Shown: positions 13,988 to 60,746 of the stretch, in pieces | Layout: every line of letters starts with the position of its first letter | Position numbering within the stretch: the stretch's first letter is position 1 | Made by a program: the position numbers and the translations under genes | The notes under the pieces: model-generated | What the model was told of the DNA's origin: nothing | The model's database searches: none | What the model saw: the letters and a program-made list of their open reading frames with translations, nothing else | Origin: Aradus depressus | Taxonomy: Eukaryota; Arthropoda; Insecta; Hemiptera; Aradidae | DNA: 64,000 nucleotides | Reading direction: 5' to 3' | NCBI GenBank assembly: GCA_963662175.1 | Contig: OY759214.1 | Span: 81,046,037 to 81,110,036, forward strand

Positions 13988-14262
13988 TAAAATAAAATGA
14001 TAGATAAAACACTTTTTTGAACACTTATATTGTCTAATTCCACAAACATATACTTAAATGTGTACCGGTTTCGGAGATCTAAGAGTAACCTAAGGGTACT
14101 CTTAGGTTAATATAAATATGTATGCCTGGCAAATATCTGAATTATTGTTGAACATTGTGCTGACGATGGCGTAAGCCGAAACCGGTACACATTTAAGTAT
14201 ATGTTTGTGGAATTAGACAATATAAGTGTTCAAAAAAGTGTTTTATCTATCATTTTATTTTA
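13988..14262. mobile_element. 275-bp fold-back element with 87-bp inverted arms (hammerhead family 1)
   Basis: Arms at 13988-14074 and 14176-14262 are near-perfect reverse complements over their whole length, with a ~100-bp loop that itself holds a small inverted repeat near 14085-14120. The right arm carries an intact-looking hammerhead-like motif (14160-14187). The left arm keeps only the GAAACCGGTACACA part. No protein is encoded, so it must depend on another element for movement. Confidence 0.85.
14160..14187 (+). ncRNA. Hammerhead-ribozyme-like motif, family 1
   Basis: In order: CTGACGA at 14160-14166, one extra T, hairpin GGC-GTAA-GCC (14168-14177, GNRA-type loop), GAA (14178-14180), the palindrome ACCGGT (14181-14186) as a minimal stem III, then A at 14187 as the presumed cleavage-site base. 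The flanks TGTG (14156-14159) and CACA (14188-14191) pair to make stem I. All conserved hammerhead core bases are present. The one departure is the extra T between A9 and stem II, seen in every copy in this window. Catalysis is inferred, not shown. Confidence 0.7.
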
Positions 14263-14561
14263 CTAATGTGAACTTTAGTCAATTAACGATTTATAGTAAA
14301 ATTGTTTGAAAAAATAACTCCGATTCACTATTATGCGAGAAGTATTGATCTAACTCTAAACAAAGCCGGTTGTTATTGGAGAATGAGAGGTTTTGAAGCC
14401 TCCCCAGATGTGAACTTTCTCTGTGGGGCCTTCTATGAACTTAATTTTTTTTTCGGGACTTCCAGCGTTTATCAATATATCAACTTAGGATTTATATCCC
14501 TTTCGTACAAAAATCTCATTTTCGATTTTTTTAGGACTTACACCCTTTTCCACGATGTAAT

Positions 14562-14685
14562 GAACAAAAAGATTCAGAAACCCCTATATAAGTCAACTAT
14601 TAAACGGTTGATTGGTTTTGGACAAAAAGTGAAAACATAATTGATGACTTCGTTCTGGGGAAGTACATTGTACAGTGATCACCTA
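14562..14685 (+). repeat. R620 repeat, 3' end fragment
   Basis: Shows the family end: aaaagattcagaaacccc, ggttgattggttttgg, gttctggggaagtacattg. The 112-residue frame covering 14302-14640 runs through this repeat and is not considered a gene. Confidence 0.65.
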
Positions 14686-15079
14686 TCAGATTTTTTTTTT
14701 TTATATGAAACCTAAATTCGAAAAATCAAAAAGCAACGTCATTCCACGGATATGCAAGGAAGCAACAATCGTTATCAGCTGATATGAGTGTTCCACTCGA
14801 TTTCAATTATTTAATTTTAAAATACCTTCATTGTTTGTTCACTTACTCAGCATTTTAAAATGCAAACATCATTTTAACCAATTGAAACTTTGCCAAATTA
14901 AATTATTATAAAAATTAACGGGACTTCCTTATACCATTAATTGTTGCACCGATCTCTCTCCCTTCCTCATCCAACCTACCAAAAACATTTCATACTGGCA
15001 TTACTGGGTACCACTGAAAAACAAATTTTGGCCAAACCACATTTTTTTGACGTAGAACTACGTTTTTCCCGGTGGAAGG

Positions 15080-16230
15080 GGGGGATAGAGATTCTGGATT
15101 CACATATAAAATTTCGTTGTTGCTACATTCATTCTATCGGGAGTTACCATGTCCACAGACAAACAACAATAGGTGTCGTCGTTAGAAAGTTCTGGATTCA
15201 CATATAAAAATTCGTTGTTGATACATTCGTTCTATCGGGAGTTATCATGTTCACAGATAGACAGACAACAATAGATGTCATCGTTAGAAAGTTCTGGATT
15301 CCCATATAAAATTTCGTTGTTGCTACATTCATTCTATCGGGAGTTACCATGTCCACAGACAAACAACAATAGGTGTAGTCGTTAGAGAGCTCTGGATTCA
15401 CATATAAAACTTCCTTGTTAATACATTCATTCTATCGGGAGTTGTCATGCTCACAGATAGACAACAATAGGTGTCGTCGTTAGAGAGTTCTGGGTTCACA
15501 TATAAAACTTCGTTGTTGATACATTCATTCTATCGGGAGTTACCATGTTCACAGATAGGCAACAATAGGTGACGTCGTTAGAAGGTTCTGCATTCACATA
15601 TAAAATTTCGTTGTTGCTACATTCATTCTGTCGGGAGTTATCATGTTCACAGACAACAATAGTTGTAGTCGTTAGAGAGTTCTGGATTCACATATAAAAT
15701 GTCGTTGTTGCTACATTCATTCTATCGGGAGTTATCAGTGCCGGCGTTAGCCAACGCGAGGCCCTGGGCCGTGGACTTTTCGCGAGGACTTCGCGGTTAA
15801 AATTAAATTTCAGCTCAAGGTTTCACCTCAAGTAACATTTTGGAAGAAAGTTTGTAGTAGTACTGCGAATTCTTCGAATAATCATCATCATTTAATAGTA
15901 TTGTTATGGTATTTTTCAATCGATACTCCATTGAATAATCCATCGATTATATTCGAAAATCGTTTCAAATGGAACTAAGATGCATTCAAACGTCCATGCA
16001 AACACTAATAAATGCACAATAATAAATTTATCAATGTATACTTTTTTTTTAATTTACAAGCGCGAGGTCCTGGGCGGTGGCCCAGGTTTGCCGCACCTAA
16101 AACCGCTACTGGGAGTTATCATGTTCACAGACAACAATAGGTGTGTAGTCGTTAGAGAGTTCTGGATTCACATATAAAATGTCGTTGTTCATATATTCAT
16201 TCTATCGGGAGTTATCATGCTCACAGATAA
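15080..16230. repeat. ~98-bp tandem satellite, about eight units, interrupted by a MITE
   Basis: Successive units start at the word TTCTGGATTCACATATAAA (or close variants) at about 15092, 15190, 15292, 15390, 15488, 15586 and 15680, spacing 94-102 bp (mostly 98), and again at about 16161 after the MITE. Each unit carries a CATTCATTCTATCGGGAGTT block and a GTTCACAGACA block. The same words occur once each, in the same order, in the minus strand of the dispersed R620 repeat, so the array looks like an amplified R620 module. The minus-strand frame at 15198-15401 is a by-product of the array. Confidence 0.88.
15728..16119. mobile_element. 376-bp hAT-type MITE with 8-bp target-site duplication
   Basis: The element is 15736-16111. 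It begins CAGTGCCGGCGTTAGCC and ends in the complement of CAGTAGCGGTTTTAGG, the CAGTG-type imperfect terminal inverted repeats of hAT elements; the subterminal words gcgaggccctggg and gcgaggtcctggg also mirror each other. It is flanked by perfect 8-bp direct repeats GGAGTTAT (15728-15735 and 16112-16119), the size hAT transposases generate. No transposase is encoded. It sits inside a satellite unit, so it landed after the array formed. Confidence 0.93.
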
Positions 16231-17750
16231 ACAGATTTTTTTTATCATATTTGGAATCTAGAAGTCGGAAAACATTAAATTCCGTTGAAAACCAGAATTT
16301 TTGGCAAATTAAATAACTTTCCCTATACTTATAGCTGGAGGAATAAAAATGATTAAAGTTTAAAACAAAATCTTTAACCCCTGATGTCAAATAATTGTTA
16401 CTAGGGTTCGTTTTTCTATAATAATTATAGATATAATAATAATTATTATTACTGGGGCTCAATTATTAAGAACTAGTAATAGTTTGCTTGTTGCAACTGA
16501 TTTTTCTGCGAATAAAGACAATATCTGTTTTCAGTATAGATTTGTATCTCACTAAGATAGCAGTTATACCATTTCTGTTGGTTTCAATTCAAGTACTTTT
16601 GATCCCTCTTCAAGGGATATAACTCAAAGATTTTAACAATGAGCTAAAGAATTATACTATGTCCTTGGTGCCTTCTACCAAGATCTATCTAGAACGTAAA
16701 AAAATGACGTCGGTGAATCATTCCGAATGAATGAATTGATTGAACTAAATTTCCCCTCTCTCTCCAGAACCAATCGACCGTTTGCGTTGAAACGGAATAC
16801 ATGCCGCTCTTATGGTGTTATAATTTAAATATAAAATGTATTGTCGATACATTCATTATTTCGGCAGCCCCACCGCAATGGTCCGGTTTAATGTTAGAGG
16901 AATATGAGAGATTCCCATGTTTATGGCAAAAAAGTGCATTGTCTTTAAAAATAGAGTAAAGAGGGACCACGCAGAAGAAATGCTGCTTCTAACATCACGA
17001 TTCCCAAATATAAAAGAGCTTCGACAAAAGATCAGAAGCATTCCAAAAACGTTTTGGATCTTCAACAGTAAGTTCCCTAATTAAGTAAGAGCCCAATTCG
17101 TTTCTTCTTTCCAACTTTTTAGTAGGGAAAGTCCTACTTTTTGAAAGTCTGCAAATATTATTAAATGTCATCTATCCCCACCGCAATTTTCAATCAGCAT
17201 GGCTCAATGCTACATATGAATATTGGATAGGGCGAGGAGTGATTACGTTTCTACAAGAGTAGGTCTACAAACGGAAGTGGAAAATGAAGACTGAAGGGCA
17301 GGCATATATGAAGGAAATATTCTAATTCAACGGTACGGTTCGTTCGATGAGAAAGGTGGCACGGCATGTGATCGGAACCATTGAGGGCAGTTAAAGCATT
17401 CAAAACCAATACAACTATAAATGTTATTCTCAATTCATATTTAATTGAATTAATTTAACATATCAAAATGTGGATTATGTGTAAACAATTTCGAGTTTTC
17501 CTTCATTCATTGGGTGGCTCCCCTCCAAGTTCACTATGAGTTTTTGAATTGAGCCCATCTTCTATTTTGTTGAACACTAATAGGTTTCGTCCTTATGGAG
17601 TTCTGAATACACATATACATTTTCGTGTCGATACATTCCTTCTATCGAGCCTTGTGGAGAAGGTGTGTTTGTATCTGAGAGTGAAGTCACACAAACACAT
17701 ACCATCTTCACCACAACTATACTCAAGTTGAGCAAATATTGACATTTATA
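16230..17750. other. Intergenic with minor R620 scraps
   Basis: Fragments resembling R620 occur at about 16820-16865 and, on the minus strand, 17570-17655. The remaining sequence shows no gene-like signal. Confidence 0.5.
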
Positions 17751-17754
17751 CGTC

Positions 17755-18390
17755 CTCAGTTATACGAAGTATAGGGAAAGTTATGTAATCGGTCAGAAAT
17801 TTGATGCGAAGTTTTCAACGGGATTTCGTGTTTTCCGACCCCCTGATTCCAAAAAAGACAAAAAATGAATGTCTGTGAACATGATAACTCCCGAAATAAT
17901 GAATGTAGCGACACGAAAGTTTGAATGTGTATGCAAAACCCTCTAAGGACAACACCTATTGATTTTCAGGCGAATCGGTCAAACGGAAAATAGGGTTTAG
18001 AGGAGAGGCATAATACAAAAAGTCTAATAGCTGCCGTTGAAATGAATATATGGGCACGAAAGTTCATATGTAAATTCAAACCCCTTTAAACGACACAATT
18101 ATTTTTCAACGGAATCAGCCGAAGGGGGTGTCAGAGGGGTGAACAACATAAAATCTCAATCCCAATAACTGCCGATGTAATGAATATATATATAATATTT
18201 ATAATAAGGGACTCAACTCAAATACCCCAATAACTCCCGATGTAAATATTGTATCCACATAAAGGTATGAGGCAGAAAGCACTATGTGAGTCAAATATTG
18301 ATTTTTAACCCAAAAGATCGATTGGCTTTGCAGGGAGAGCAAAAACGTAATTGATTAAATTGTGCTGGGGAAAAAAATTAGGATGGTGAT
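17755..18390 (+). repeat. R620 dispersed repeat, near full length
   Basis: The copy opens with TATACGAAGTATAGGGAAAG and TTATGTAATCGGTC, runs through three degenerate internal modules, each with a TAATGAATRTATCGACACRAAA-type block followed by a CARAACCCYNTAAGGACGAC-type block, and ends near a GGGGAAAAAAATTAGG variant of the usual GGGGAAGTACATTG. There is no terminal inverted repeat and no credible ORF. The class is unknown; it is non-coding and high-copy. Confidence 0.8.
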
Positions 18391-18589
18391 TCACCAACCA
18401 CTTTTTTATTAACGCGACAGAATCTCGAAGTGCCAATGATGGGGAGGGTGCTCTGGTGGGTGAAGAGGGAACCATGCAACTTATTTTACAAAAAAATTAT
18501 TCTACCTTTCCCCTTGTCTTTTTAGAGGGTGACTACACTCAAAATACCCGAACAATCCCTAACTACAAACGTTTGCAAAAAATGTTTAA

Positions 18590-18720
18590 AAAAAACTATG
18601 TTTTTTCTAAATACCTATTGCCTATTTTACAAAATATATGGGAGTACTTTTGGTATTGCTACCATCTTCAGCCATGACTTGACAAATACTCTCAATATTT
18701 ATAAAAAAACACATATTTTT
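18590..18720 (-). mobile_element. Partial hammerhead-family-2 element
   Basis: Contains ATATATGGGAGTACTTTTGG followed by TATTGCTACCATCTTCAGCC, the minus-strand view of the family 2 arm. The opposite arm is missing. The motif at 18642-18671 (minus strand) keeps CTGAAGA, the GGTA/TACC hairpin and AGTACTC, but GAAA is mutated to AAAA. The ORFs overlapping it at 18456-18726 are chance frames. Confidence 0.6.
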
Positions 18721-19022
18721 TGTTAAATGTTTCACAATATCTCTGCAAAAAATGTTATCATTTGTTCTACAAACGTTTCACGTTCATCAAATTCATGCAC
18801 TAGTTTTTTTAAATTCAGGTTTTACCTTCCTGATATTACAAATATTTATTTATTAACAAATTTTTTGGCATATAATTATTTCAGAATTAAATTAATATTA
18901 AACAATTAAAAGTTAATGAATGATATTCCCCAAATTATAAGGGGCTAACGCTGCTGTAATATTGTGGAAGTGGATTCTTGTTAATTTTTGGTGTCTGCTG
19001 ACCCTCTGCTCCTTCATCAGTG

Positions 19023-19043
19023 CCCCCCCCCCCCCCCCCCCCC
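19023..19043. repeat. Poly(C) run of 21
   Basis: Twenty-one consecutive Cs (T then more Cs follow). It is another example of the long C/G homopolymers in this window. Confidence 0.9.
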
Positions 19044-19254
19044 TCCCCGACATCCTTATAATATATGTAGGTATAAATGTAAAAAAACGAATAACAAAAA
19101 AAATTGGTTATCAATTACTTTAACGATTACCTATGACATTCGATTGATAAGTAGTATCTTTGGGTTTGTTTTATCAAGCTTTTTTTTTTTTAGATTCTAT
19201 TCTTCAGTTCAATATTGAAGGGGTTGGCAGTCATACTTCAGGAGGTGCGTGGGA

Positions 19255-19775
19255 ATTTATTATAATATAATATATTGACCTAGTGATAGGTATAATAGGG
19301 AATATATTAATATACATAGTACTTAATGTATAATATACCTATATAATATAATAGATAACACATTAATATACCTAGTAATAGAAATATATTGACTATATAC
19401 CTAAATAATATAATAGGTAATATATTGATAATATACCTTTACAATATAATAGGTAATTTATTAATAATAAATAATTTAATATAATTTATTTATAATAGGT
19501 AATTTATCTATTACCTAGTAATAGGTAATATATTGATAATATACCTTTACAATATAATAGGTAATACATTAATATACCTAGTAATAGAAATATAATGATA
19601 ATATACCTAAATAATATAATAGGTAATATATTGATAATATACCTATACATATAATAGGTAATTTAATAATATACCTGGCAATAGGTAATATATTGATAAT
19701 ATACCTATATATATAATAGGTAATTTATTAATATACCTGGTAATAGGTAATATATTAACCTAGGTATATTCTATC
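19255..19775. repeat. AT-rich tandem array of palindromic AATAGGTAATATATTG units
   Basis: About 500 bp made almost only of the words AATAGGTAATATATTGATAA, AATATACCTATA and AATATACCTTTACA in alternation. Because ATAGGTAAT is close to the reverse complement of ATACCTAT, the array is both a direct and an inverted repeat and could extrude cruciforms. Units vary from about 30 to 60 bp. No coding potential. Confidence 0.85.
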
Positions 19776-19784
19776 TCACTTCAC

Positions 19785-20425: not shown

Positions 20426-20447
20426 GCTCATTGAAGACATTTTCTAT

Positions 20448-32900: not shown

Positions 32901-33995
32901 TAACATGTACTTGAATGTTTTGATAAAAAAATTACAAGTGTTATAAATATTTTTTCTAAACTTAACACATTGCTCAAAATGAAGTGTATGTCGTATAGAA
33001 AATTCAGCAAGATCTGGTGTGAATAGGCTATTTATGAAATTTGAAGTACCTATAGACTCCTATTTTCCAGAGTTCATTTCTTCTGAGTTGCCTTATTAAC
33101 TTTTAACAATATTTTGGTACCCTTCCACGTTCCTTCATCAAATCACAAAGAACAGAGGGTTCGCTATTTTACTTCTCTTAAAAACAAATAATCAACCATC
33201 ATCTCAGAGAAGTCTAAGAAACACATTGAAGTGTAGACATTGCATTTCATTAGATGTCTTGTTATGACTAAATTTATATATCGATTTCACCAATTCGATT
33301 TCCGCAGTGTCTAATTTGAGCGGCTTATGATTGCAGGTACTGGAGAATTGCTTCGAGGTGAAGCTCAACATCCGATTGTACATCCTGGCTCTGGCAGTCC
33401 CTTTGGTTCCCCTGGGTATTATCAGATCTCTCAAGGTCCTGGTGCCCTTCTCCGCACTCGCCACTGCCTTCATCCTTTTCTGTCTGGTAGTGACCCTCTG
33501 TTACACCTTCATCGATCTCCCACCCATGGACACAAGGCCCTTCATCACATCTGTAAATCGATGGCCGCTCTTTCTTTCCACCGTCCTCTTTGCCATGGAA
33601 GGCATTGGAACTGTAAGTTGACTTTGGACCCAGTAAACATGGGTAAATAACTTCGTAAAGTGTAAATGGTATTACAGTTTCTCTAATGACTATAAAACTC
33701 TAGGTGTAAGAAGGTAAACAAGGTAAACAGCAACGGTGGGGCCTCCACACCACCCGCCCGCCGCGTAGGGGGGAATCAGGTAATTGAATTTAATATACTA
33801 CTGAATAAAACACTTAGAACAAGTCAAAAATGCCACTATATTTATATAAAATACACAATATATTTCGCTGGTTAGAGCATTGTCAAGTGTACAGGATACA
33901 GACTTATGATTGGTGGTAATATTTTGGAAAAAAGTCAAGATAAGGGTGGGGGGGAGGGTTAGGAGGGGAAGAGTGAGGGAGGGGGAAAGAATAGT

Positions 33996-34026
<31 letters not shown>

Positions 34027-36350
34027 ACTACCATACTATATCACATCAGAAATCAGAAAAGAGATATATTATTTAATTATTTTTCTGATTAAATTGTGAT
34101 ATAGTATGGTAGTTCCCCCCCCCCCCCCCCCCCCCCCCGGTTATTTCCCCCTCCCTCACGCTTCCCCTCCTAACCCTCCCCTCCAACCCCCCCCCCCCCC
34201 CCCTCCCACCCCATATCTTGACTTTTTTCAAAATATATTACCACCCGTCATAAGTCTGTATCCTGTACACTTGACAATGCTCTAACCAGCGAAATATATT
34301 GTGTATTTTATAGAAATATAGTGGAATTTTCGACCTGTTCTAAGTGTTTTATTCAGTAGTATTTACAATGAACTTCCACAAGATCTCTGGCGAAAACATC
34401 TCTAATTTGAATTTAATATGTTTTATTTGGTGCTAATACTCGTCACGGTGAGTTGCTGGGTCCTTTTTGTAGGACCCAGCGATTCGCCGGGACGATGTTT
34501 GGGTCCCCCAAACTACCTTAATGGCGATTCCCGAGTGAGCTCGGGATCATCTACGATTTGTGTATGGGGTAGGCACTGGGAGGGTCTTAGAGCACCCAGC
34601 AGTCATCCCCGGAGTCACGTTATACTGCCTTGTTTACCCTCCACCAGGAGGCAACGAATCGACCGAACTCTGGCTAATCAGCCTCACTCATCATCTTCCG
34701 CGGGTTCAGTCCCAGGTATCATTCTGTCCGGCGTATCAACTCCACCCTATTGGTATAGGTACGAGGTGATCCTCGTACAGCGAGCATATGGGATGACCGT
34801 TTTTCCATAAATCAAGCAATCTTCAAAAAGACGAGAATATACAATAATCCTAAAAACTGCTCTTTTGGACCAACTGTTTTCACAAAAAAAAAATATATAC
34901 ATGTCTCTGCTGGCGCTGTGGCGATTCGAATGTGAATTTTTAATTTTTTACATTTCCGTTATAAGTTTCTGCTTGTTCTTTGCCTTTTCTATGTGTAACA
35001 AGGTAGATATGAATTTGTGACGACTGTTGTCAAAATAATTTAATATTTTAATTTTAAATTTAGGTGCTCCCGATTGAAAACTCCATGTCTACTCCTCAAC
35101 ACTTCCTCGGCTGCCCTAGTGTTCTCAATATTGCCATGAGCATTGTGGTATCGCTATATACTAGTGTTGGGTTTTTTGGATTTCTCAAATATGGAGAAGG
35201 GGTCCAGGGCAGCGTTACTTTGAATCTCGGAGAGACGCCGTAAGTTTTATATTTATTTAGTATATTTTTTACTTTTTCTTAAATAAAATATTCATGCAAT
35301 TTCACAGCTTGCACAATACAAATGTAGTCTGACTTCTAACAGATTTTATTACTACATACTAGCCGGCTTTCGAAGTTGCTCATCATTAGACTATCTGCAA
35401 AAAAAACATAATTTAGTAAAACATATATAGGGAGCCAACGTGGCCGTGCGGTCTAGACGGTAGGGGTTTGGTCGCATGGTCTCACCATGGTTTGCGGGTT
35501 CCCGACCGGGAGTGAGTTTTATTTCGTAGATAGAACTCCCTCCCAAGGCCATGAATGTCGTAAATATAACTAAATAACACATTGACATAGTATGCACCTT
35601 ACATAAGACCGAATACCTGAGCCTCCAGGCCTGCCACTGGCAACCTACGCCGATGACACGCTCCTCATAGCTCAGGACTGTGATCTTCATAGGGCCGTGC
35701 TCACTTTTCAAGAGGGTCTGGATGTCCTGGCAAATTGGTTCAACAGATGGAAGTTGAGGCTAAACGCGAACAAGACAGAAACTAAGGTTTTCGCACTACG
35801 ACGCATAAACCATGATACACTGACACCGCTAAACATCAACCACAGAAACATCTCCTGGACACCAACACACCAGGTGGTGAAGTATCTAGGGGTGCTCCTA
35901 AACACCAAACTGACCTGGGGCCAACACATTAACTCCAAATTGACACATGCCAACACTAGACTCTCCTCACTCTACCCACTTCTCAACAAGAACACTACAC
36001 TCCGACGTGAATGTGCCACACTACTCTACACCGCACTCATACGGCCACTCATCACATACGCCTGTCCGGTTTGGCTCGGCACAAGCCAGACCAACATTAA
36101 GAAACTGGTCAGGTTCGAAAACAAAGTTCTCCGCCTTGCCGTAAACGCGCCTTGGATGGTAAGGAATTCTCAGATACGCAGGGAGCTGGGTGTTCCCGAC
36201 GTTCGAGACTTCATATTGGAGTTAGCGACAAGATTCAGGACTGGGCTGCAGAATGTTTCTGGAGCCGCTACCTTTGGCATTGGGGAACCTCTGCTACACC
36301 GTCGTCTGAAGCCCCGGCTTCTACAAGACATTATATTCTAACCATGTGCA

Positions 36351-36386
<36 letters not shown>

Positions 36387-39300
36387 TATTTATTTATTTT
36401 TTTAAATTGTGTATAGCGCCCCTTGCGCTGAACCGAATAAAGAGTTTTTTTTTTTTTTTTTTTTTTTTTAAGACCGAATATGCACCTTATATAAGATCAA
36501 AAAAAAAACCTATATAAAATTCTAATAGATAAAATAATAAATATATAAGAATATATTATTTTACCAAAAGTAAATTATTAAAAAGAATAAAACTGTCCAA
36601 TAAATAAAAAATACTCAAAATTGTTATTTTTGTGTAGTTTTGTATATTTTTTATTTATTAGATGGTTTTATTTCTTATCCTCTACATTATGTGTTTAATA
36701 AATGTTTTATCGGGTATGTTAATTGTTATAGTTTTTTTTATATCGTTATATTAAGTTACTTATTTATTGATTTCATTTATTGAATTAATTTATTTTGTAT
36801 GAACCATTAACCATATAGCCAGCCAGCTATTTTACCCTTTAGAATTTTATATATTTTTTACTAAACTATGGGTTTTTTGTAAATAGCCTGATAATGAGGG
36901 TAACCTCGAAAGCCAGATAATAATAAAATTTGTTAGCAATAAAGTCAAACTACATTTTATTTTGCTATCACATACATTGTTCATATTAAAGTCATTGTTT
37001 AAATATTTAGTAAATATATATTTTAATTTTCAATAAATACAATTTTCATACTAAAATTCAATTATTTAGATTTTTTTTTTGTACATATAAGTACGTGCTC
37101 GTTTTTTCTAAAAATGTCATATATCAATTTGTCTTATTCAAAACTTATGTTTACTATTTATGTATTGTTTTATTTTTTATAATTAATATCATATTGTCTT
37201 CTATTTTTAGTTTGGCGGAAATAGTGAAAATCTTGGTGGCATTGTCCATTCTGTTTACGTATGGTCTTCAGTTTACTGTACCTTCTGAAATACTGTGGTT
37301 GACCATCGGGCACAAATTCAGTGCGCAGAATGAATCCAAAGCGTTCTACATTATGAAAGCATTAATGATTTTTGGAACGGGTACGTAGATAGTTGTACTC
37401 TTTTTTCTTTGAAACATACAGGGTATATTTTTGTTTTTACATACCTTGTATAATTTCGGTTTGGTAACGTTAAATCTGCCTTTTTCAGACACTTCTAACA
37501 TAGATAGAAGACTGAAACTTGATGACAATGTATTAATTTTCGAATACATTTCTGCGATCTGTGTTGATATAGTGGAAAGCTAACCAAATAAATTAAAAAA
37601 AAAAAGAAATTGTTTAACTTTTATAGTTTAACTCCCCAAAAATATATATACATAATGTACCGGTTTCGGCTTACGCCTTCGTCAAATGTGACACTGTTTT
37701 CTAGGTTGTCATATTTATACAATCCTCAGGTTACCTAACATTAACTAATCTATGACAATCTAGCAAAGTCCATGTAGGGTAGGGAGTCGTGCCTTTACAA
37801 AACAGAATATACAAATATCTTAATTTAAACATGAACAAAATCAAGAAAATATGATGGTAAGAAATTTATTAAAAAATTAAAGAAAGTGTTTATCGTATAA
37901 TACATAGTATATATAAGAAATAAGGGCATATGACATAATATCGAAGTATAAGAAGAAAATAAAATATATACTCTTTATAAAAAAAATATATAATATATTA
38001 TTAGCCATATCAGTTTAACGGTTCACCGTCTATCCGTTGCATGTCATATATCATCTCATCTTAAGCACAGAGTTGTAGCGTCACTAAGATTGCTGTCCCT
38101 AAGTACAAAAATATATATATATCAATCGACAACTATTAAAGAAAACTAAAAAGTAAGAAAATAATATAAACAACAAGTTTATCAAAAATATTTCTTATAT
38201 TTCAAATATATATGTATATTCCGAAATAATATGAAGTATATCAGGTATTATATAAGGTATATCCGATATTATATATCAATTTGTTGCATTGTTGATCCTG
38301 TGTAATGGCTTATAAAGATTTATAATATAATTCTATGAGAATCCGAACAACCATTAAGCACTCATTTTTACATTCCTCTCAGAATGTCAAGATGAAATGA
38401 AATGAAAAGAAATTTTATTATTCCGGGACCGAGGTCCCCTAAGAATAAATACATATAGAGTAAAGAACAGGAAACAATAAAATATAGTATCAGTATGACG
38501 TACAAAGAAATAAATAAATTAGTACTACATTGGAGAAAACTAGAAATTAATAATACATAGATATACAAAAAAATTAAAACGAAAAAACATAAAATTAACA
38601 GCTTAATTGAGGAGTTTGGAGCCAGAGCGGACCAACCCACAATTTTTCGGAAAATGAGTTATTACCATCCTGATGTTGGCATAGGTTCCCTTTTTCAAAA
38701 CCAGTGTGGATCACTTAGTTTCTTCACTTCAGTGATAGATAGCAGCACTTTAAGTTTAGTCCACAAGTATTTTGTGCATATATTTTCAAAGTCACAATGG
38801 ATCATACGGCCTTCAAAAACTTTATAGAACACAAAAAGGGATCACTCATCCAATACTATTCTAAAATTTCAAATATAAATAAATATTTGGGGCCCATTTA
38901 TGGAGATAAACAAAATGTACTCAATTTTCAATTGCCATTTTCTACCTGTTCAGTTTCAACCAGTTGGTCCGCTCTGGCTCCAAACTCCTCAATTATGAAG
39001 AAAAAAAATAAAAGTATATTTTTTAATAAAAGAGAATATGTAAAAAAAAAGTATATAAATAAGAAAAAAATAAATAGATTAAAAAAATCGATAGAGCATA
39101 ATACTATGATGGTTGATTATAAAAGAGAGGGGAGGATGCCCAGACAAGGTTTAAAATAAAATTAAATTTACATAGAAGGAGCTAAAAAGTGTGAGGAGAA
39201 AGAAGAAAAAGAAAAATACACAATAAAATAAGATGCTATATGACCTGGGTTTGTACAAGATTTATAAGGATTTATAAATCTTGTACAGGCTCATGTTACA

Positions 39301-41819: not shown

Positions 41820-42185
41820 ACATTTTATTATTTTGTGCTAGACGGCTTTCGCAGTTGCCCTCATCATCAGACACTCTGATAAAATATAATCATTAAAACA
41901 TAATTTAAAAATGTAAAAGTTAATAAATAAAAAAGGCTCTCCAATAAATAAATAACTATTAAAAAATTAAATTTAAAATGTTATGAATGGTGACAGATAC
42001 GTTATTCCTGTACCCCATCTGAGTCAAAACAGTTGTTTTTGTGTAATTATGTATTGGACAGTCATTTCTATTTATTCATTTTATGTTTCTATATATTTTT
42101 TTTTTAATTTATGTACATATGTATATATATGTAACTCGAAAGACGGTTAGCACAAAATAATAAAATCTCTGAGAAATCAGTCTAA
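41820..42185. mobile_element. Hammerhead-family-3 inverted-repeat element
   Basis: Left end ATTTTATTATTTTGTGCTAG, ACGGCTTTCGCAGTTGCCCT, CATCATCAGACACTCTG; right end TCGAAAGACGGTTAGCACAA and AATAATAAAATCT (about 42137-42167) is the shortened reverse complement. About 250 bp of AT-rich sequence lie between. Non-coding. Confidence 0.7.
41839..41870 (-). ncRNA. Hammerhead-ribozyme-like motif, family 3
   Basis: Minus strand: CTGATGA, extra T, GAGG-GCAA-CTGC hairpin (one mismatch), GAA, AGCCGTCT (palindrome AGCCGGCT with one change), A. Outer stem I pairs GTGT with GCAC (one wobble). Core bases are intact. Confidence 0.55.
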
Positions 42186-44593: not shown

Positions 44594-45180
44594 AATATTG
44601 TCTATTTCACAAAATATATGGGAGTACTTTCGGTATTGCCACGATTTAACAAATACTGAACAATAACTGAATATCAGTATTTGTTAAGTCGTGGCTGAAG
44701 ATGGTAGCAATACCGAAAGTACTCCCATATATTATATATATTTTTTGTAGTAGACAATATTTTTTTTTAAACATACGTTTTTCTTCATTTTTTTTACCAG
44801 ATAATTTTTACACTAGATTTTGTAAGATGCAAAACTATAGTACATTTTGGTGATTAGACGAATTAAAATAGAAATTAATACATTTTTTCCTGAAAATTAT
44901 GTTAATTTGACCATACATCGTTTTATTGACAACTACAGCAGTCCTTTCACTTAGCTCCAAATTTCGATTTTTATAAATGTTGTCTATTTCACAAAAAATG
45001 TATACATAAACTTCCGGTTTCGGCCTTACAGTATCGTCAGGTTTATTACTTAACCTAAAAATTGTGTAATCCAGAAATTGGTAGTTTATGTATGAATTAA
45101 TTGTGGAATAGACAATATATATAATATATATATATTCACCTCATCATAAAACAAAATATATGTTATTTATTCATTATAAA
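44594..45180 (+). mobile_element. ~590-bp composite element with two hammerhead modules, copy 1
   Basis: It begins with a 168-bp fold-back (44594-44761) whose arms are AATATTGTCTATTTCACAAA and its complement, carrying the family 2 motif. About 210 bp of unique-looking spacer follow, and then a family-1-type motif on the minus strand at about 45008-45040 (CTGACGA, then a disturbed stem II, GGCCGAAACCGGAAG). The whole block recurs inverted at about 59515-60133. Common mobility of the two motifs in one element ties the families together. Confidence 0.82.
44695..44724 (+). ncRNA. Hammerhead-ribozyme-like motif, family 2
   Basis: CTGAAGA (44695-44701), extra T, perfect hairpin GGTA-GCAA-TACC (44703-44714), GAA, AGTACT palindrome (44718-44723), C at 44724. 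Stem I pairs GTGG (44691-44694) with CCAT (44725-44728), one wobble. All core bases are intact. The left arm of the same fold-back lacks 13 bp covering the core. Confidence 0.72.
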
Positions 45181-45324: not shown

Positions 45325-45605
45325 GTCTGACCTACCTCTCACAGATTTTATTAGTTTTTCCTAGCCGGATTTCGAAGTTGCCCTCATCATCAGGCAAACT
45401 GATAAAATAATTTTGAAAACATCATAATCTAAAATGATATTCCTTGTTCCCCATCTGAGTCACAACTGCTACTGTTTCTATATCAGTTTATTTTAATTTT
45501 TAAACCTTATTTATTAAATCATTTTAAAATTATAAACCTCGAAAGCCGGCTAACAAAAATTAAATAAAAAATGTGAGAGTTTAGACTATATTTTATTTTA
45601 CAACC
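45325..45605. mobile_element. Hammerhead-family-3 inverted-repeat element
   Basis: Left TAGTCTGACCTACCTCTCAC, AGATTTTATT; right CTCGAAAGCCGGCTAACAAA and AATGTGAGAGTTTAGACTAT (about 45536-45590), the reverse complement of the left terminus. The motif at 45362-45393 (minus) has CTGATGA, T, GAGG-GCAA-CTTC, GAA, ATCCGGCT, A: core and stem II intact, stem III with one mismatch, stem I weak. Confidence 0.68.
45362..45393 (-). ncRNA. Hammerhead-ribozyme-like motif, family 3, weakened stem I
   Basis: Core bases and a four-pair stem II with GCAA loop are present on the minus strand. Stem III has one mispair and stem I pairs poorly, so activity is doubtful. Confidence 0.5.
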
Positions 45606-50440: not shown

Positions 50441-50659
50441 TTGGAAAGATTTTGTTTGTGTATTTGAGTTAATCTCAAAAACTACTAAATCGATTTGTGT
50501 AATTCTTCCACCGTGGGGAAGCTTTTTTCTCTCCGGTGAGCAAACGATCATAGGATAGTTTTCAATAAGAGTTTTTATTTTACTACATTTTTCGGAAAAC
50601 TTCTAATTGTTTTCTATATTTCAAATTCTTTTCAGAGTTTTTTTCATGAGTATTTTGAA

Positions 50660-50850
50660 TAAAACAAACTTATTTTTTTGAAATATTGTCTCAGTTCATA
50701 ACTAGACCTGACGATGGTATAAAGCCGAAACCGGTAGTTATGTGTATATATCTTTAGTGGAATAGATAATATTTCAAAAAATAAGTTTGTTTTATTCATT
50801 TATTACAAGTTTCCACAATATGTCCGCGTTCCTCAACTTAGAATGAGTAT
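50660..50850 (+). mobile_element. Hammerhead-family-1 element, compact
   Basis: The short inverted ends AACAAACTTATTTTTTTGAA, ATATTGTCT (about 50664-50691) and AGATAATATTTCAAAAAATA, AGTTTGTT (50766-50793) enclose the motif. It is followed by CAAGTTTCCACAATATGTCC and GCGTTCCTCAAC, a flank also found after the composite element at 45.18 kb. Confidence 0.7.
50708..50736 (+). ncRNA. Hammerhead-ribozyme-like motif, family 1
   Basis: CTGACGA, extra T, GGT..GCC hairpin (one wobble pair), GAA, ACCGGT (50730-50735), A at 50736. Stem I can pair GAC with GTT, or CATAAC with GTTATG leaving a bulge. Core intact, stem II weaker than in the 14.16-kb copy. Confidence 0.6.
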
Positions 50851-51149
50851 TTTGGACCATCAATGATTTTCCACATTCCCGAAATCGATTCTTGATCCAA
50901 GGCTTATCTTGGTAGTGAGGAGATGGTTTCTACTGATGTGTCTTTTCTTTATTTACTTCCGTTAAACCATAACAAGATAATAGGATACGTCATAGGAATG
51001 TATACATTAAGATAGCTTATAAAACAAATTTATAACTACTTGAGTCTGACAATATCATTAGTAATAACAATACTATTTAAAATAATAAAATGAAATGAAT
51101 AAAAAGTTAATAAATAAATACAAATATATAAGTACAAAAATAATAATGG

Positions 51150-54595: not shown

Positions 54596-54750
54596 GAACG
54601 CCGGTAGCTCAAAGCAAGCGTGCTTGATCGAGATCGAAGTATTCGAAACCCAGCCGATGTCCTTAGGTTTTTCATCTGAAAAACATTGAGCATGCCGTCC
54701 TTCGGATGTGAAGTAATTGATGGTTCCAAGCCTGTACAATATACCGGCAA
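54596..54750 (+). mobile_element. SINE-A copy, 5' half
   Basis: Head GAGAACGCCGGTAGCTCAAA and B-box TATTCGAAACCCAGCC, then ATGCCGTCCTTCGGATGTGA and CCAAGCCTGTACAATAT. It is truncated in the body and abuts R620 at about 54750. Confidence 0.8.
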
Positions 54751-55325
54751 TATACTTCCCCAGAACGAATTAATCAAATAACTGTTCGCTCGAGTTATTG
54801 AATTGAACCCTTCCCCTTCAGCAAATATCGCCGAAATTTGACAGGTTATGTCCTCATTGGATTTTGGCTTCAAGTATGAAATTTCATGTCGATACATTCA
54901 TTACATCGGAAGTTATTGGGTTTTTTTGAGTTAAGCCCCTCTGTTCCCCCCTTCCCTTCTGCCGATTCCGCTGAAAATTGATAAGTGTCGTCCTTATGAA
55001 GTTTTAAATTCAAATATGAAATTCTATCTCGATACATTCATTAGAACATTAGTTATTAGAATTTTTTGTTAGGCGTCCGCCCTAATCCCCCTTTTCATTT
55101 TGATGATTTGGCTGAAAATCAATCAATTTCGTCGTTAGATGGTTCTGGATCCACATGAAAATTTTGTGTCGATATATTCATTCTAGCGGGAGTTATCATG
55201 TTCACAGATAAACACAGCAAACAGAAAATATTTTTACTTTTACTTTTCTTATGGAAAATAATGAAATTTCTGTGAAAACTCAACATCGAATTTTTGACCG
55301 ATTACATGACTTGGTAGAACTTAGG
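54750..55325 (-). repeat. R620 dispersed repeat, minus orientation, near full length
   Basis: From ATACTTCCCCAGAACGAATT (family end) through three GATACATTCATT blocks to TCGAATTTTTGACCGATTAC and ATGACTTGG (family start). Confidence 0.82.
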
Positions 55326-55739
55326 AAGTAAAAGTAGTCATCTGATGCAAAATATAATGCAATCGTTAGATCGTCCGAAGAATTTGTAATTGTAAGCAGG
55401 ATTTATCAATAAATTCAACGAGGTCTATAGTATGAATATACATCAGTATTATTCAAAGATAGTATAAAGCATTGTTTTATTGCGTCATCTATAATCTCTA
55501 TATATTTATCTTTCTGTGTCATTGACCAAGAATGTGAATTTCTTTGATTGTAATGAAGAAATCAATAAGTATTATCGATAGTTATTCAACCTCTATAATC
55601 TATATATAATTAGTATTATAAATGATACATTGCCAACAACTCAGTCGCGCACCTTTATGTATGCTAAAATTCATTTTTGAATTGTGGAGATTCTGAATTT
55701 ATAATAATATATATTTTCCATAGTTTTCTTATTATATTT

Positions 55740-55925
55740 TTTTGGTTATTACAACCTAGCAAATATAGACTATTTTTCTGGTTATTACAACCTAGCACAT
55801 ATAGACTATTTTTTTGGTTATTACAACCTAGCAAATATAGACTATTTTTCTGGTTATTACAACCTACCAAATATAGGCTATTTTTCTGGTTATTACAACC
55901 TAGCAAATATAGACGTTTCGAGAAG
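55740..55925. repeat. 36-bp tandem repeat, five units
   Basis: GGTTATTACAACCTAGCAAA begins at 55744, 55780, 55816, 55852 and 55888, exactly 36 bp apart, each followed by TATAGACTATTTTT. As 36 is a multiple of three and the unit lacks stops, both strands stay open (minus 55664-55906, plus 55677-55946) with a 12-residue repeat. There is no reason to believe in a protein. The array runs into GACGTTTCGAGAAGAACTCTC. Confidence 0.93.
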
Positions 55926-56510
55926 AACTCTCATCAGTATCTATAATTTATTTCCTGTATCTTTATTTATAATGTTTATGTTAAATATGGGAGAAAAATG
56001 TACTTCCTAAAAAGGATATTGAATATGTATACATGTACATACTGTAAGGATAAATCAGTATCTATACTTAATTTGCTGATCTTTATTGAAAACAATTGTT
56101 TCTATATATATTATTTAATATGTTCTACAAAAAAAATATTATACAGAAAATATTGTTTAGAATAATGATCAGCAAATGAAATATAGATGATGGGAGTTTT
56201 TCCCGAAACATCTATAAGAATGTAGTCTATCAAACACGTATGTAGTTACTTATACGTCCTTAGAGCCCCTTTTACACTCTCGTTGATTTCGTTATTGAAA
56301 AATGCCACTAAAAAACGATGGTTTTTGTTTCTAAGATAAGGAACACACCTCCGTTGTTCTTTGAATGTAGTGTCGATATTTCTATACCCATTTCAATGTA
56401 CGTCCGGAAGTTATTGTTGTTGTTCCAAGGACTATTCAAAATACATCACTAATCTGCTCATATATGAATCCTGGATTGATTGAGATAACCATAGGGGAGG
56501 TTATTCCAAG

Positions 56511-56768
56511 ACTTGAAAAATAAAATAAAACTTGTTTATTTAATATATTGTCTAATTTCACTAACTATATATACATGGGAGTACTTTTAGTATTTCTACC
56601 ATCCTCAGCCAAAAGCATAAGAGATAAGACTGATCTCTTCTCAGTCTTGTATTATCTCTTATGCGTTTGGCTGAGGATGGTAGAAATACCGAAAGTACTC
56701 CCATGTATATATAGTTAGTGAAATTAGACAATATATTAAATAAACAAGTTTTATTTTATTTTTCAAGT
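56511..56768. mobile_element. 258-bp near-perfect hairpin carrying hammerhead family 2
   Basis: The two halves are reverse complements about the centre (position sums are constant at 113279), from ACTTGAAAAATAAAATAAAA at the left to the complement ending 56768, with only a few mismatches and a small apical loop. The right arm holds an intact motif (56671-56700). In the left arm GAAA has become TAAA. It is followed by ATTTCACAATATCTCTGC, a flank seen near other copies. Confidence 0.9.
56671..56700 (+). ncRNA. Hammerhead-ribozyme-like motif, family 2
   Basis: CTGAGGA (56671-56677; the variable N7 is G), extra T, GGTA-GAAA-TACC hairpin, GAA, AGTACT, C at 56700, then CCATG pairing with TTTGG upstream (stem I, with wobble). 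Core intact. The GAAA loop is again GNRA-type. Confidence 0.7.
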
Positions 56769-56919
56769 CCATTTGAATTATTTCACAATATCTCTGCAAT
56801 AATGTCAGTTTTCATATTCCAAGACTGTTTTTATTTCGCTTAGGGCGAAAGCTGACGACGGTCAAAAAAGTCTCGTAGAATCCATTTTATTGCTACCCAC
56901 TTTTTTTGTTTTGCTTCTC

Positions 56920-57560
56920 CAGCTATACGAAGTATAGAGAAGTTATGTAATCGGTCAAAAATTCGATGCGGAGTTTTCAACGGAATTTCATTTTTTCCGA
57001 CCTTTAGATTCCAGGTACGCTCTGTTTGTCTGTTTGTGAACGCGATAACTCCCGATAGAAAAGACATGTATCCTATTGTTTTTCATCCAAATCGACCAAA
57101 GGGGAGGGGAGGCTTAACATAATTGCTCTAATAACTACCGATAAAATGGATGTGTCGACACAAAATTTTATGTGTATATCCAAAACCCCATAAGAACGAC
57201 ACATTAATTTTCAGCGGAATCGGCAGAAGGGAAGATGGGCTCAGCTTATAAAAACCAATAACTGCCAATGTTATGAATTTATCGACATGAAATTGCATAT
57301 TTAAAGTGACAACCCAATGAGAACTTCACCTGTCAAAGTTCAGCGATATCGGCTGAAGGGAAGAAGGGTTCAGGGAAGGGGCTTAATACAAAAACCCTAA
57401 TAAATGCCGATGTAATGAATATATCGACATGAAATTTCATATGAGGATTCAGGAGCCTGTGTAAGTCAAATGTTGAATATTAGCTCAAACGGGCGACTGT
57501 TTTTGGAGGTAGAGCGAAAAGTTAATGGATTAATTCGTTCTGGGGAAGTACATTGCCGGT
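56920..57560 (+). repeat. R620 dispersed repeat, full length
   Basis: Opens CTATACGAAGTATAGAGAAG and TTATGTAATCGGTCAAAAAT; three modules with ATGTGTCGACACAAAATTTT, TTTATCGACATGAAATTGC and ATATATCGACATGAAATTTC blocks; ends GTTCTGGGGAAGTACATTGC. This is the best reference copy for the family. Overlapping short frames are not genes. Confidence 0.87.
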
Positions 57561-58159
57561 GGTTAATGCATTTTTTAATTACGAAAACTGCATTGAATCA
57601 AGAATTAATTTCAGAAGTGTACAAAATCATTAATATTGTAAAAAAAAATGTAGAAAGTTTAAAACAAAAAAACGCCGGTAGTCTTTAGATAACTTCGCCC
57701 TGAAGAGAATGACATATTGTATGTAAATGTAGGTTCATCGTAATCTTTTGCGAAAAAATCAGAAAATGAACAACATTGAATTTCAATTTATTTTTAATTT
57801 TTTGAAAAACATTTAGGTCCAAAAAACTCAACATCTAATTTCGGACTAATTTTGTAAAACTGGGGAAGTAATGTTGCATGATTTCAATTTTTTAAAGTAA
57901 TATTTTAAATATTTTTAGATAATATATGAAATTTAAAATAGTTAAATCTAATCACTGTGATTGACAATGTCAATGTTATTCCTATTGTTATCAGTAATGA
58001 TTATGAAACTATGCCCTATTTTGCGATTATGTAACAATGAAATGCTTTTTTATTTAATAAAATATTTTATTATCATGTTATTATTTTAATTTGGAGGCAC
58101 GGAAGAACGCAAAAATAGAAGTTGAATCCAACAAATGTTTATGGTGGGGGGTGGACGAG

Positions 58160-59130
58160 GTCATTACTATTAGTATAGGGGAAGTTATGTAATCGGTCAG
58201 AAATTCGATGTATTTTTTTCACCGAAATTTCCTGTTTCCCCAACTTTCCGTGAAAACGTCGGGATAAAATAATTTTTCATTTCTTTTCGATGCTGCCGTA
58301 GCTCTTGCATTTGCTCGGCACTAGTCTTTTTAGGTTTTTTAAATTCCTTTTGATGCCAGCTTTCCTCCGATTTGCGTTTTCTATAATTCCGCGCATATTT
58401 ACGATTCATATGAGACATCTTTATTTTTTTTTGCAATTTTCAATTTAATACCGATTTTTAAATATATTTCGGCGAATATTTTTATTGTTTCACTTTGAGT
58501 CCTAGTAGTGCTCCTCAAGCTCTTTACCATGACACCCGAATCAACGTCCTATCTAAACGCGTTATCACGCTACACTAATTTCTAATTTTACACAACGCTA
58601 ATTCGCAACAATCATCCGCCGGCGCCCACACTAGCCCAATACCGTCGCAGGCACAACAAACACGTACAGACATGCTCTATCCATTGATACCTCAACCGTT
58701 GTTATCGCATTATTAGTCTCGTAGTTATTATCGATTGAAATCTGACTGTATTTTGTAACCGGTGTGACTGTAGTTTGACCGGCTATCACTGTGCTTAACG
58801 AGCGATTAGACGTTTTCACGTCAAAATCATGTCTGTATGTTTGTGTGTTCTGAATACGATAACTACAGATAGAATGAATGTAACCTTCATGAAATTTTAT
58901 ATGTGTATCCAGAACTCCTTAAGGACGAAACTTGAAGCCTCGCCAAATTTGCCGCAAGAAAGAGGGTGATGGCTTAACTCAAAAACTCTAATAAGTGCCG
59001 TTGTAATTAATGTATTGAGCAGAATTTCATATGTAATTTCAAAACCCTATAAGGACGACACCTATTAATTTTCAGCGACAATGTACTTCCCCAGCACGAA
59101 TTAACCAATTAAGTTTTCGCTCTCATTCTG
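58160..59130 (+). repeat. R620 copy split by a TIR element
   Basis: The family start (TATAGGGGAAGTTATGTAAT, CGGTCAGAAATTCGATGT) is at 58177-58230. It resumes after the insert at about 58827 with ATGTCTGTATGTTTGTGTG and CGATAACTACAGATAGAATG, continuing to TTTCAGCGACAATGTACTTC. A minus-oriented piece follows to about 59290. Confidence 0.78.
58249..58820 (-). mobile_element. 572-bp TIR element with a short basic ORF, copy 1
   Basis: The 12-bp perfect terminal inverted repeats CGTGAAAACGTC (58249-58260) and its complement (58809-58820) bound the insert in R620. The minus-strand frame 58436-58197 starts MQKKIKMSHMNRKYARNYRK and RKSEESWHQKEFKKPKKTSA, very rich in Lys/Arg, and reads straight through the left TIR. 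So the element looks like an internally deleted derivative retaining a long 5' leader and the first ~65 codons of a longer protein. Family unknown. Target duplication not found. Confidence 0.7.
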
Positions 59131-59514
59131 AAACCAATCGATTGTTTTGACGAAACATTAAGTTGACTTCTTAATCCTCATACTAAATCTCGTGTTGATA
59201 CATTCATTACATCGACAAATTATTAGGGGTTTTGAGTTCTGTCAATTTTGCTGAAAATTAGTTAGTGTCGTTCTTATGGTGTTTGGAAATGAGTTTCAGT
59301 AAAGTCATACTAATAGGAATACATGGCATGTTCTGCGCTTTATAAATTGTATATAAATCAGGCAAGTTTTTTAAAATGGTGGAGTAAGTACTGTCTTTTG
59401 CAATAATAACACAACATGATACTTATTTATTGTAAAAAAAAAGAATGTTGACTTAAACATTATTAGTTAATGATTACTTTTTAAAATAATGTTTGATACT
59501 AAACATTTTTCGCA

Positions 59515-60133
59515 GAGATATTGTGAAACTTTTTATTGTTTTATGATGAGGAATATAAATATTACTAATATCATTATAAATGAATATAATATATTCACCT
59601 CATCATAAAACAATACCAATTTCTGCATTACACAATTTTCAGGTTCAGTTATAAAATAAGAGTGTTATTCTATAACTAAACCTGACGATGTAAGGCCGAA
59701 ACTGGTAGTTTATATATAAATGTCTTGTGAAATAGACAATATTCATAAAAATCGAAATTTGGAGCTAAGTGGTAGGACTGCTGTAGTTGTCAATAAAACA
59801 GTAAGACGATGAATGGTCAAGTTAACATAATTTTCAGAAAAACAATGTATTAAATTCTATTTTCATTCGTCTAATCACCAAAATGTACTATAGTTTTGCC
59901 TCTTACAAAATCTAGTGTAAACATTATCTGGTAAAAAAAATTAAGAAAAACGTATGTTTTTTAAGAAAAATATTGTCTATTTAGCAAAATATATATAATA
60001 TGGGAGTACTTCCGGTATTGCTACCATCTTGAGCCACGACTTAACAAATATTGATGTTCTGTTACTGTTCAGTATTCGTTAAACGTGGCAATACCGAAAG
60101 TACTCCCATATATTTTGTGAAATAGACAATATT
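59515..60133 (-). mobile_element. Composite hammerhead element, copy 2 (inverted relative to 44.6 kb)
   Basis: The segment from TTTATTGTTTTATGATGAGG through CTGACGATGTAAGGCCGAAA (59682), the spacer GAAATTTGGAGCTAAGTGG.. to the fold-back 59969-60133 matches 44594-45180 in reverse complement. In this copy the family 1 stem II is shortened. In the fold-back one arm reads CTCAAGA (G5 mutated) and the other carries the same 13-bp core deletion as the 44.6-kb copy. Confidence 0.82.
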
Positions 60134-60197
60134 AAAAAAAAAAAAAAACATACTTTTTCTTTATTGTTTCAGAATACTTATATTTGCAAAAAAATGC

Positions 60198-60705
60198 ACA
60201 AATACTAAGTGGAAGTTCAACCAGTTTACAATCCAAACTGTCACCTTTTTCAGCCCCCTACGGGGTTTTTCCCTGTACAGTTAAGTCTTAAAATATGAAA
60301 AACATTAAAAATAACATTTCGTCTCAAATTGAAATCTTAATAATAAAAGAAAATTTTTTAAATAGTATTTGCTGATTAAAATACAAATGCATATGCATAC
60401 ATGAAATAAATCAAAAATGACATTAATAAATATATAAATAAAAATAAAAAATATATTTTGTATACGTACGTAACTTCTTTCTCAAAAAACTGTATCTTTA
60501 TTTTGTATATTTGTATTTTAATCAGCACATATTATTTCAAAATTTTATTTTATTATTAATATTTCAATTTGAGACGATATTTTATGTTTAATGTTTTTCA
60601 TATTTTAAGACTTAACTGTACAGGAGGGATAGGGAAAAACCCCGTGGGTGCTGAAAAAGGTGACAGTTTGGAATGTAAACTGGTTGAACCTCCATTTAGT
60701 ATTTG
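60198..60705. repeat. ~508-bp fold-back with ~150-bp arms
   Basis: Left arm AATACTAAGTGGAAGTTCAA, CCAGTTTACA, ..GTCACCTTTTTCAGC, ..ACAGTTAAGTCTTAAAATAT, ..CGTCTCAAATTGAAAT (60198-60350). The right arm (about 60558-60705) is its complement with ~90% identity. The ~200-bp loop is AT-rich. It lies between the composite element and a half copy of family 2. Confidence 0.85.
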
Positions 60706-60716
60706 TTAAGTCGTGG

Positions 60717-60746
60717 CTGAAGATGGTAGCAATAGCGAAAGTACTC
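60717..60746 (+). ncRNA. Hammerhead-ribozyme-like motif, family 2, one stem II mismatch
   Basis: CTGAAGA, T, GGTA-GCAA-TAGC (one mispair), GAA, AGTACT, C, with GTGG/CCAT stem I. Flanked on the right by TATATATTTTATGAACTAGA and CAATATT as in other family 2 arms. Confidence 0.58.

Follow-up and report, generated by a model that had tools for sequence, protein, structure and literature searches.

The question raised by a 64,000-nucleotide stretch of the hemipteran Aradus depressus (assembly GCA_963662175.1, contig OY759214.1, positions 81,046,037 to 81,110,036; hereafter the window, with all window coordinates counted from its first letter) is what the hammerhead-like ribozyme motif recurring on both of its strands is, and which element carries it. 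A first-pass annotation had placed the motif in at least three unrelated-looking repeat families, had named Penelope-like elements (PLEs) and retrozymes as carriers of similar ribozymes, and had left the mobilising element open. Based on the window and the rest of the genome, we put at about 85% the probability that we are dealing with minimal type I hammerheads carried by families of endonuclease (EN)-containing PLEs.

The window holds 13 occurrences of the pattern CTGANGA..GAAA where 2.19 are expected, and none of 100 shuffles reached 13. A strict descriptor, comprising the core, a stem II of at least 3 bp, a paired stem III ending in U16.1, H17 and a stem I of at least 2 bp, gave 5 matches against a mean of 0.06 (maximum 2) in 100 dinucleotide shuffles. 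A covariance model, R1, was built from 18 copies of six families, all from outside the window, and gave 13 window matches at E < 0.01. All seven main copies of the first-pass annotation (14160, 44695, 50708, 56671 and 60717 on the plus strand, 41870 and 45393 on the minus strand) were recovered with E-values from 5e-4 to 2e-12; the families behind R1 overlap those of the window, and a match therefore confirms membership of a family and not an independent origin. The model also matched three of the proposed relics, at 18671 on the minus strand, 36.89 kb and 59682, and two minus-strand partners that had not been listed, at 56615 and 60040. The remaining relics are either weak, at 37.69 kb (E 0.027), 52.2 kb (E 0.13) and 35.39 kb (E 0.51), all on the minus strand, or, at 28.7/29.2 and 32.6 kb, gave no R1 match up to E 5, where the sequence was read as well. 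One further match, 59605-59649 on the minus strand, looks spurious when its sequence is read. By the strict descriptor four of the seven main copies are intact, and those at 41870, 45393 and 60717 fail with damaged stems. The Rfam search that had been proposed as a check returned no hammerhead at the gathering score or up to E 10, and its weak matches are nearly all palindromes scored as microRNA-like. The hammerhead models of Rfam rest on forms with a loop on stem III.

In a MAFFT alignment of the 18 copies the core CUGANGA, GAAA and U16.1-H17 is present, with A, C or U at H17; its columns are invariant except for N7, as are the U and G that follow A9 (13 invariant columns). The named structure is paired in 87% of 138 cells, compared with 24-47% when the partners are slid by 1-3 columns, and the percentage paired, the two-sided cell changes and the covariation score each lie above all 500 column shuffles; copies of one family are not independent, and the independent changes number as many as the families, not the rows. 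Stems I and II covary between families, as had been proposed, and pair 6-44 appears as GC, AU, CG and UA with zero failures in 18 copies. Pair 5-45 is broken in 3 copies of the 18 and pair 4-46, the outermost of stem I, in 15, so that most copies have a stem I of two to three pairs. In seven families stem III forms a perfect loopless palindrome (ACGT twice, ACCGGT twice, ACTAGT, AGTACT and AGCCGGCT), a result partly selected for by a descriptor that requires a paired stem III; the PLE-linked families A, B, D, F1 and F3, which are tied by position, all have it. Since this stem is a loopless palindrome, cleavage would most likely need two hammerheads paired via stem III. The extra U forms an ATG with A9 and G10.1 that opens short frames only in the families read (for example ATG GCG TAA), and in family A the first in-frame ATG of the long frame lies ~150 nt after the core begins. 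The earlier description of a minimal type I hammerhead with an extra base after A9 and a palindromic stem III is supported; the stem II given as GAGG/CTTC came from a damaged copy, and the family's own is GAGG/CCTC.

These hammerheads are abundant in the genome. The pattern CTGATGAN{4,16}GAAAC is found 10,474 times in 698 Mb, compared with 568 for its reversed control, and exact words gave 8,429 copies (4217 + 4212) of the D core 29-mer, 2,807 (1407 + 1400) of a B 42-mer and 757 (382 + 375) of an F3 34-mer, each with 0 for the control. Thirty GIY-YIG loci were fetched, and 25 of them have a hammerhead of A or B on the same strand downstream of the domain, usually a few hundred bases away; in the other five (L029, L030, L046, L054 and L056) no A or B hammerhead was found downstream. 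The families behind the seven main copies are A, B, D and F3, and each lies elsewhere in the genome downstream of a PLE reverse transcriptase (RT) and/or GIY-YIG frame, as does F1; the Penelope lead of the first pass was right, and the element it left open can be named. Frames of B are found in L064-L067, L068 and L069 link D with pieces of RT and GIY-YIG, and F1 forms long inverted arms with PLE frames inside in L009, L010 and L012. F3 is linked in 2 of 10 loci, by a frame 54% identical to B/D (L108) and by a C-terminal piece (L106), its endonuclease being assigned by similarity to B and D only. RVT_1 scores above the cut-off in A (1.7e-12) and B (6.5e-15) and below it in the D and F1 fragments (2.6e-5 and 5.6e-5), and GIY-YIG scores above it in A, B and D and just under it in F1b (21.9 of 22.6 bits). 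Homologues from many animals are among the matches listed (120 of 359). The A units hold an 859-codon open frame and form head-to-tail tandems with a period of 2819 bp and a hammerhead at each junction; just past the tail of an A element with this frame lies a 45-bp minisatellite (L061:7881-9125).

The families turned out to be less unrelated than they had looked, as a tail motif (GTGRAATWAGACAATAT-like, by eye) is common to B, D and F3 and their RT/EN pieces are ~53-65% identical. In a midpoint-rooted tree of 30 proteins, in which the F1b and D rows are under half filled, A, B and D fall in one well supported 12-row clade and F1 in another part; the ribozyme therefore occurs, with different stems, in lineages on either side of a deep split. 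This bears on the view that the hammerheads are vestigial and kept only since young copies have not yet decayed. Many window copies are indeed damaged, and according to the accessible part of the study of PAc, the Poseidon PLE of Anolis carolinensis, cleavage-dead ribozyme mutants left insertion of that element in vitro unaffected (PMC11167929). However, stem I, stem II and the palindrome of stem III differ between families with pairing and core kept, which also holds for B against D, with RT pieces 60% identical, and from one deep RT clade to the other, and we consider a vestigial ribozyme quite unlikely.

How the copies are built can be read from their arrangement. Of 34 D neighbours no more than 5 kb apart in the first 100 listed places, 30 have a minus-then-plus order with tails outward, or 23 of 27 if the 8 pairs that belong to one ~70-kb-spaced series are counted once. 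That series (G000:C1:135342-689169) consists of eight D pairs of the same spacing (73) that recur every 65-77 kb with one gap of ~135 kb, at the start of C1; two fetched copies, L089 and L090, have the same target duplication, and the series looks like a ~70-kb segmental tandem repeat near a chromosome end. For F3, 7 of 10 loci fetched without a listed close exact partner nevertheless have, within ~2 kb, an F3 core or tail in the opposite orientation. We examined a first set of 47 insertions (12 A, 13 F1 and 22 D), picked for a minus core followed by a plus core and with L090 dropped as a duplicate of L089, and a second set of 16 (13 B and 3 F3). The tails end at two sites per family, at, in rounded nucleotides from the start of the core, 95 and 129 in A, 85-93 and 110 in F1, 101 and 145 in D2, 93 and 135 in D1, 97 and 142 in B and 105 and 156 in F3. 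One short and one long end were found by rule in 44 of 47 insertions of the first set, and in 46 after L096 and L098 were read and found to fit; the second set gave 13 of 16 by rule and 15 after reading (L109 and L117 fit), so that the pairing holds in 57 of 63 by rule and in 61 once the other six are read. If each end were chosen independently and evenly, half would fit (p = 1.2e-10 for the first set). Almost every insertion examined thus has its two ends at different RT start sites.

In 34 of 47 insertions of the first set the flanks have 11 nt or more in common, compared with 7 of 2162 mismatched flank pairs, and the target duplications are mostly 11-15 nt. For 14 of the 16 insertions of the second set the longest common stretch reaches 12 nt or more, counted without a control; in L115 the stretch is not at the ends. 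One F1 insertion (L016:697-1665) has ~970 bp between its hammerhead-bearing arms, which next to the left arm is unlike F1; this is perhaps captured DNA, as reported for rotifer Penelope. Inverted arms, target duplications and the many copies without coding sequence would also fit a terminal motif of foldback or inverted-repeat DNA transposons, acting at the DNA level, whose hammerhead look is unused as RNA. The ends, however, lie beyond the motif rather than at it and at two different fixed places, the core is hammerhead-specific and its stems covary, and PLE RT/EN frames stand in the same units; this explanation was dropped once the frames were found, and we now regard it as highly improbable.

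A more serious competitor is that head-to-head copies arise from one template by snap-back, the first cDNA priming itself, with the short end being a trimmed long end. The arms of young A elements are 100% complementary over 1.9-2.5 kb (L059, L060 and L061), as this would predict, and self-priming, on an antisense template, was proposed in the accessible text of the rotifer Penelope study (PMC3846280). Trimming sits poorly with a short end that is fixed for each family and with another end that is long in nearly all insertions examined. Moreover, in L109 and L117 the two arms extend to an identical 5' end and are separated by four filler bases, and L088 joins two tail variants, differing by 5 in 88, within one 12-nt target duplication. 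The left arm of L088 is identical to an arm of another insertion, and its right arm is one change away from that of L087; L072 has mixed tail variants like L088, without a duplication. L087:180-1077 and L088:183-1080 share an 898-bp head-to-head unit at 99.3% identity, apex included, and the two units stand at different sites with different target duplications and in opposite short/long order. Both the mixing in L088 and the copying of whole units would follow if a second cDNA annealed to the inverted arm made by the first. Snap-back from a single template appears rather unlikely to us, although it keeps an appreciable share of our belief.

The opposite, inner ends of the arms suggest where the template RNAs begin. 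The 5' ends cluster upstream of the core, at 22-23 nt in 12 of 36 D2 arms (another 8 reach the 110 limit), at 15-17 nt in 14 of 26 B arms (another 2 reach the limit), at 19-20 nt in 4 of 8 D1 arms (another 2 reach the limit) and at 19-22 nt in 4 of 6 F3 arms. In longer D1, D2 and B copies this stop falls at TTAGT, which we take to resemble the arthropod initiator, and for this reason the stop point is read as the likely RNA start. It lies upstream of the cleavage site, and the templates of the sampled core-bearing copies were therefore not cut there.

These arm ends also bear on a retrozyme-like cycle, in which the hammerheads process RNAs into circles that serve as the reverse-transcribed intermediate. 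Circular RNAs are the proposed intermediates of retrozymes in the available part of one report (PMC7229834), and a circle copied repeatedly would give just such an exact 2819-bp tandem period with a hammerhead per junction as is seen in A. The sampled core-bearing arms, on the other hand, cluster upstream of the hammerhead, in a sample that cut templates could not enter. A local look at truncated arms found 32 truncated matches among 279, of which 12 are at least 88% identical and the rest 71-86%, many of them cross-family; among the 12, L035 alone starts 1-2 nt from the cut, the others being scattered with no pile-up at the cut. The retrozyme reading also finds little in the window itself, where the tandem-repeat program TRF lists no motif-bearing arrays of 170-400 nt. 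We consider such a cycle improbable.

In our view the likelier origin of the small elements is two-ended target-primed reverse transcription of an RNA that starts just before the ribozyme. This account builds on the observed family linkage, covariation, head-to-head structure, two fixed tail ends, target duplications and clustered arm 5' ends, and its steps would run as follows. The hammerhead sits in the repeat (the pseudo-long terminal repeat, pLTR, or 5' leader) of an EN-containing PLE, whose RNA would start 15-23 nt upstream of the hammerhead core. Reverse transcription would be primed on both strands of a staggered cut and would start at two neighbouring sites, ~55-75 and 80-130 nt beyond the point where cleavage is expected, with each end of the insertion using one of them. 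The cDNAs would then run off the 5' end of the RNA and be joined, giving tiny elements with two hammerheads.

A bolder version, which we offer tentatively and hold to be doubtful, is that PLE insertion is an obligate two-template reaction, in which a dimeric RT-EN complex carries two RNAs paired via the palindromic stem III. Each strand of the staggered cut would prime one RNA, the short site being used for one and the long site for the other, with the hammerheads ~55-130 nt from the RT start sites, and the ribozyme would be first of all an RNA-pairing device that, once paired, can cleave. If true, this would explain both the loopless stem III and the need of the anole ribozyme for protein.

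Several points weigh against the reading of the motifs and their insertions given here. Self-cleavage at H17, as a dimer, is a prediction from sequence, and ViennaRNA single and paired folds were mixed, singling out neither hammerhead nor dimer. Three of the five covariation measures exceed all shuffles and two do not, the number of pairs with two-sided changes (277/500) and that of further pair types (458/500) lying within them. Families C, E and G are without a linked frame, none having been sought. L082 departs from the one-short-one-long rule, L113 is unreadable at its right end, which runs into (TA)n, and in 13 of 47 insertions the flanks have fewer than 11 nt in common. The clustered 5' ends of the arms were counted without a shuffled control, and insertions and arms were chosen for having the core, a choice by which copies from cut RNA would be missed. 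The evidence for two templates is one clear case with a target duplication, L088, which is itself of the unit class, together with L072, and L087 and L088 suggest that some small, non-autonomous PLE elements are copied as whole units and not formed anew.

The same anatomy is found in the window, where the copies are short ends (tails) of PLE insertions without coding sequence. No PLE coding relic was found there by tblastn at 1e-3 with seven PLE queries, none of them from F3, in agreement with the earlier remark that no Penelope frame is visible. Two short insertions are complete. The family B insertion at 50646..50854 (unstranded) has a short, tail-only left arm and a right arm with a hammerhead and a long tail, and is flanked by a 12-nt duplication, ATGAGTATTTTG, at 50646-50657 and 50843-50854; its hammerhead (50701..50743, plus strand; R1 E 2.2e-11) has stem I GAC/GTT, stem III ACCGGT and the predicted cleavage site A^GTTATG. 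The family D insertion at 56502..56825 (unstranded) has head-to-head hammerheads, a short left and a long right tail, and TATTCCAAGAC at both ends as an 11-nt duplication. Its plus-strand hammerhead (D2, 56664..56707; R1 E 1.9e-12) has stem II GGTA/TACC, stem III AGTACT and C^CCAT, and the inverted partner (56572..56615, minus strand; R1 E 1.5e-9) is slightly decayed. The F3 hammerhead at 14153..14194 (plus strand; R1 E 6.3e-10) passes the strict descriptor with stem I TGTG/CACA, stem II GGC/GCC, stem III ACCGGT and A^CACA. Its inverted partner arm (13933..14074, minus strand), recognised by a 97% BLAST match to the F3 tail and by sequence reading, is cut off inside the hammerhead and begins in the 3' strand of stem II; just 8 nt (CTTTAGTC) recur at this copy, ~9 nt from where L123 would place the long end.

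Four further hammerheads belong to D1: an intact one at 44688..44731 (plus strand; stem I GTGG/CCAT; R1 E 1.2e-11) that passes the strict descriptor, one at 60710..60753 (plus strand; R1 E 6.7e-9) with one broken stem II pair, one upstream of and opposite to it at 59997..60040 (minus strand; R1 E 7.1e-7) with its core changed to CTCAAGA, and a decayed one at 18635..18678 (minus strand; R1 E 1.8e-9). Family A has left relics at 45355..45400 (minus strand; R1 E 1.2e-5), with a long tail that matches the A reference to position 130, at 41832..41877 (minus strand; R1 E 5.4e-4) and at 36881..36942 (plus strand; R1 E 4.4e-5), where the core now reads CTGATAA. The relic at 59675..59714 (plus strand; R1 E 1.1e-5) has the tail motif and belongs to a further B-like family, E, and an F3 relic at 37652..37689 (minus strand; R1 E 0.027) is followed by an F3-like tail. 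A hammerhead-like motif of family G, without the extra base, lies at 55905..55944 (minus strand; R1 E 0.064) and was picked up by the strict descriptor; its stem III is ACGT, and its 3' side abuts a 36-bp minisatellite of five copies (55735-55937) listed by TRF. Elsewhere in the window there are a near-perfect ~250-bp hairpin (33942-34190) with long G and C runs in its arms, scored by Rfam as several microRNA families below their cut-offs; two 798-bp direct repeats, 99.9% identical (6608-7405 and 9352-10149), around a 600-aa open frame (7486-9288, minus strand) that by eye looks like a non-LTR (long terminal repeat) reverse transcriptase with RNase H; and a 98-bp minisatellite of 6.6 copies (15086-15740) with related stretches elsewhere.

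Minimal type I hammerheads of PLEs were reportedly described by Cervera and de la Pena in 2014 and by Lunse, Weinberg and Breaker in 2017. As far as the published accounts were accessible, those hammerheads share with the ones described here the core, the absence of a stem III loop, the location in PLE repeats, thousands of copies and a proposed action as dimers, whereas here several families with different stems stand side by side in one genome, and the likely RNA start and the paired-end anatomy are read from insertions. PAc likewise has RT and GIY-YIG domains, a hammerhead near the start of its open reading frame and two RT start sites, which give a 'tail' of 30-40 bp; it cuts and extends both strands, and its ribozyme cleaves only with protein. 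Its start codon lies in stem II, its open reading frame beginning at the position of the ATG that in the Aradus families opens short frames only, and strict short/long end pairing is not reported in the accessible text (PMC11167929). EN-containing Penelope of Adineta vaga shares the head-to-head inverted pLTRs, the partial tandems, the tail at one end and the short duplications, which are 8-10 bp there; the word hammerhead is absent from the accessible part of that study (PMC3846280). Metazoan retrozymes also carry type I hammerheads in mobile repeats, as described in the part of the report at hand (PMC7229834). Minimal PLE hammerheads in thousands of dispersed copies and their possible dimer action are thus already in print, as are head-to-head structure, tails and short duplications for the rotifer Penelope and two RT start sites for the anole element, in the portions of these sources available. 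The strict one-short-one-long rule and the clustered arm 5' ends were not found in the literature searched, in its accessible parts, most subscription papers being outside it.

In the accessible text of a 2020 review the role of minimal hammerheads was called a mystery (PMC7761336). Thousands of exact copies in several families of one genome amount to a natural experiment, in which the insertions suggest where the template RNAs begin relative to the ribozyme. If this is true, the mode of PLE insertion and the use of cut RNA would be directly testable by sequence counts and simple assays.

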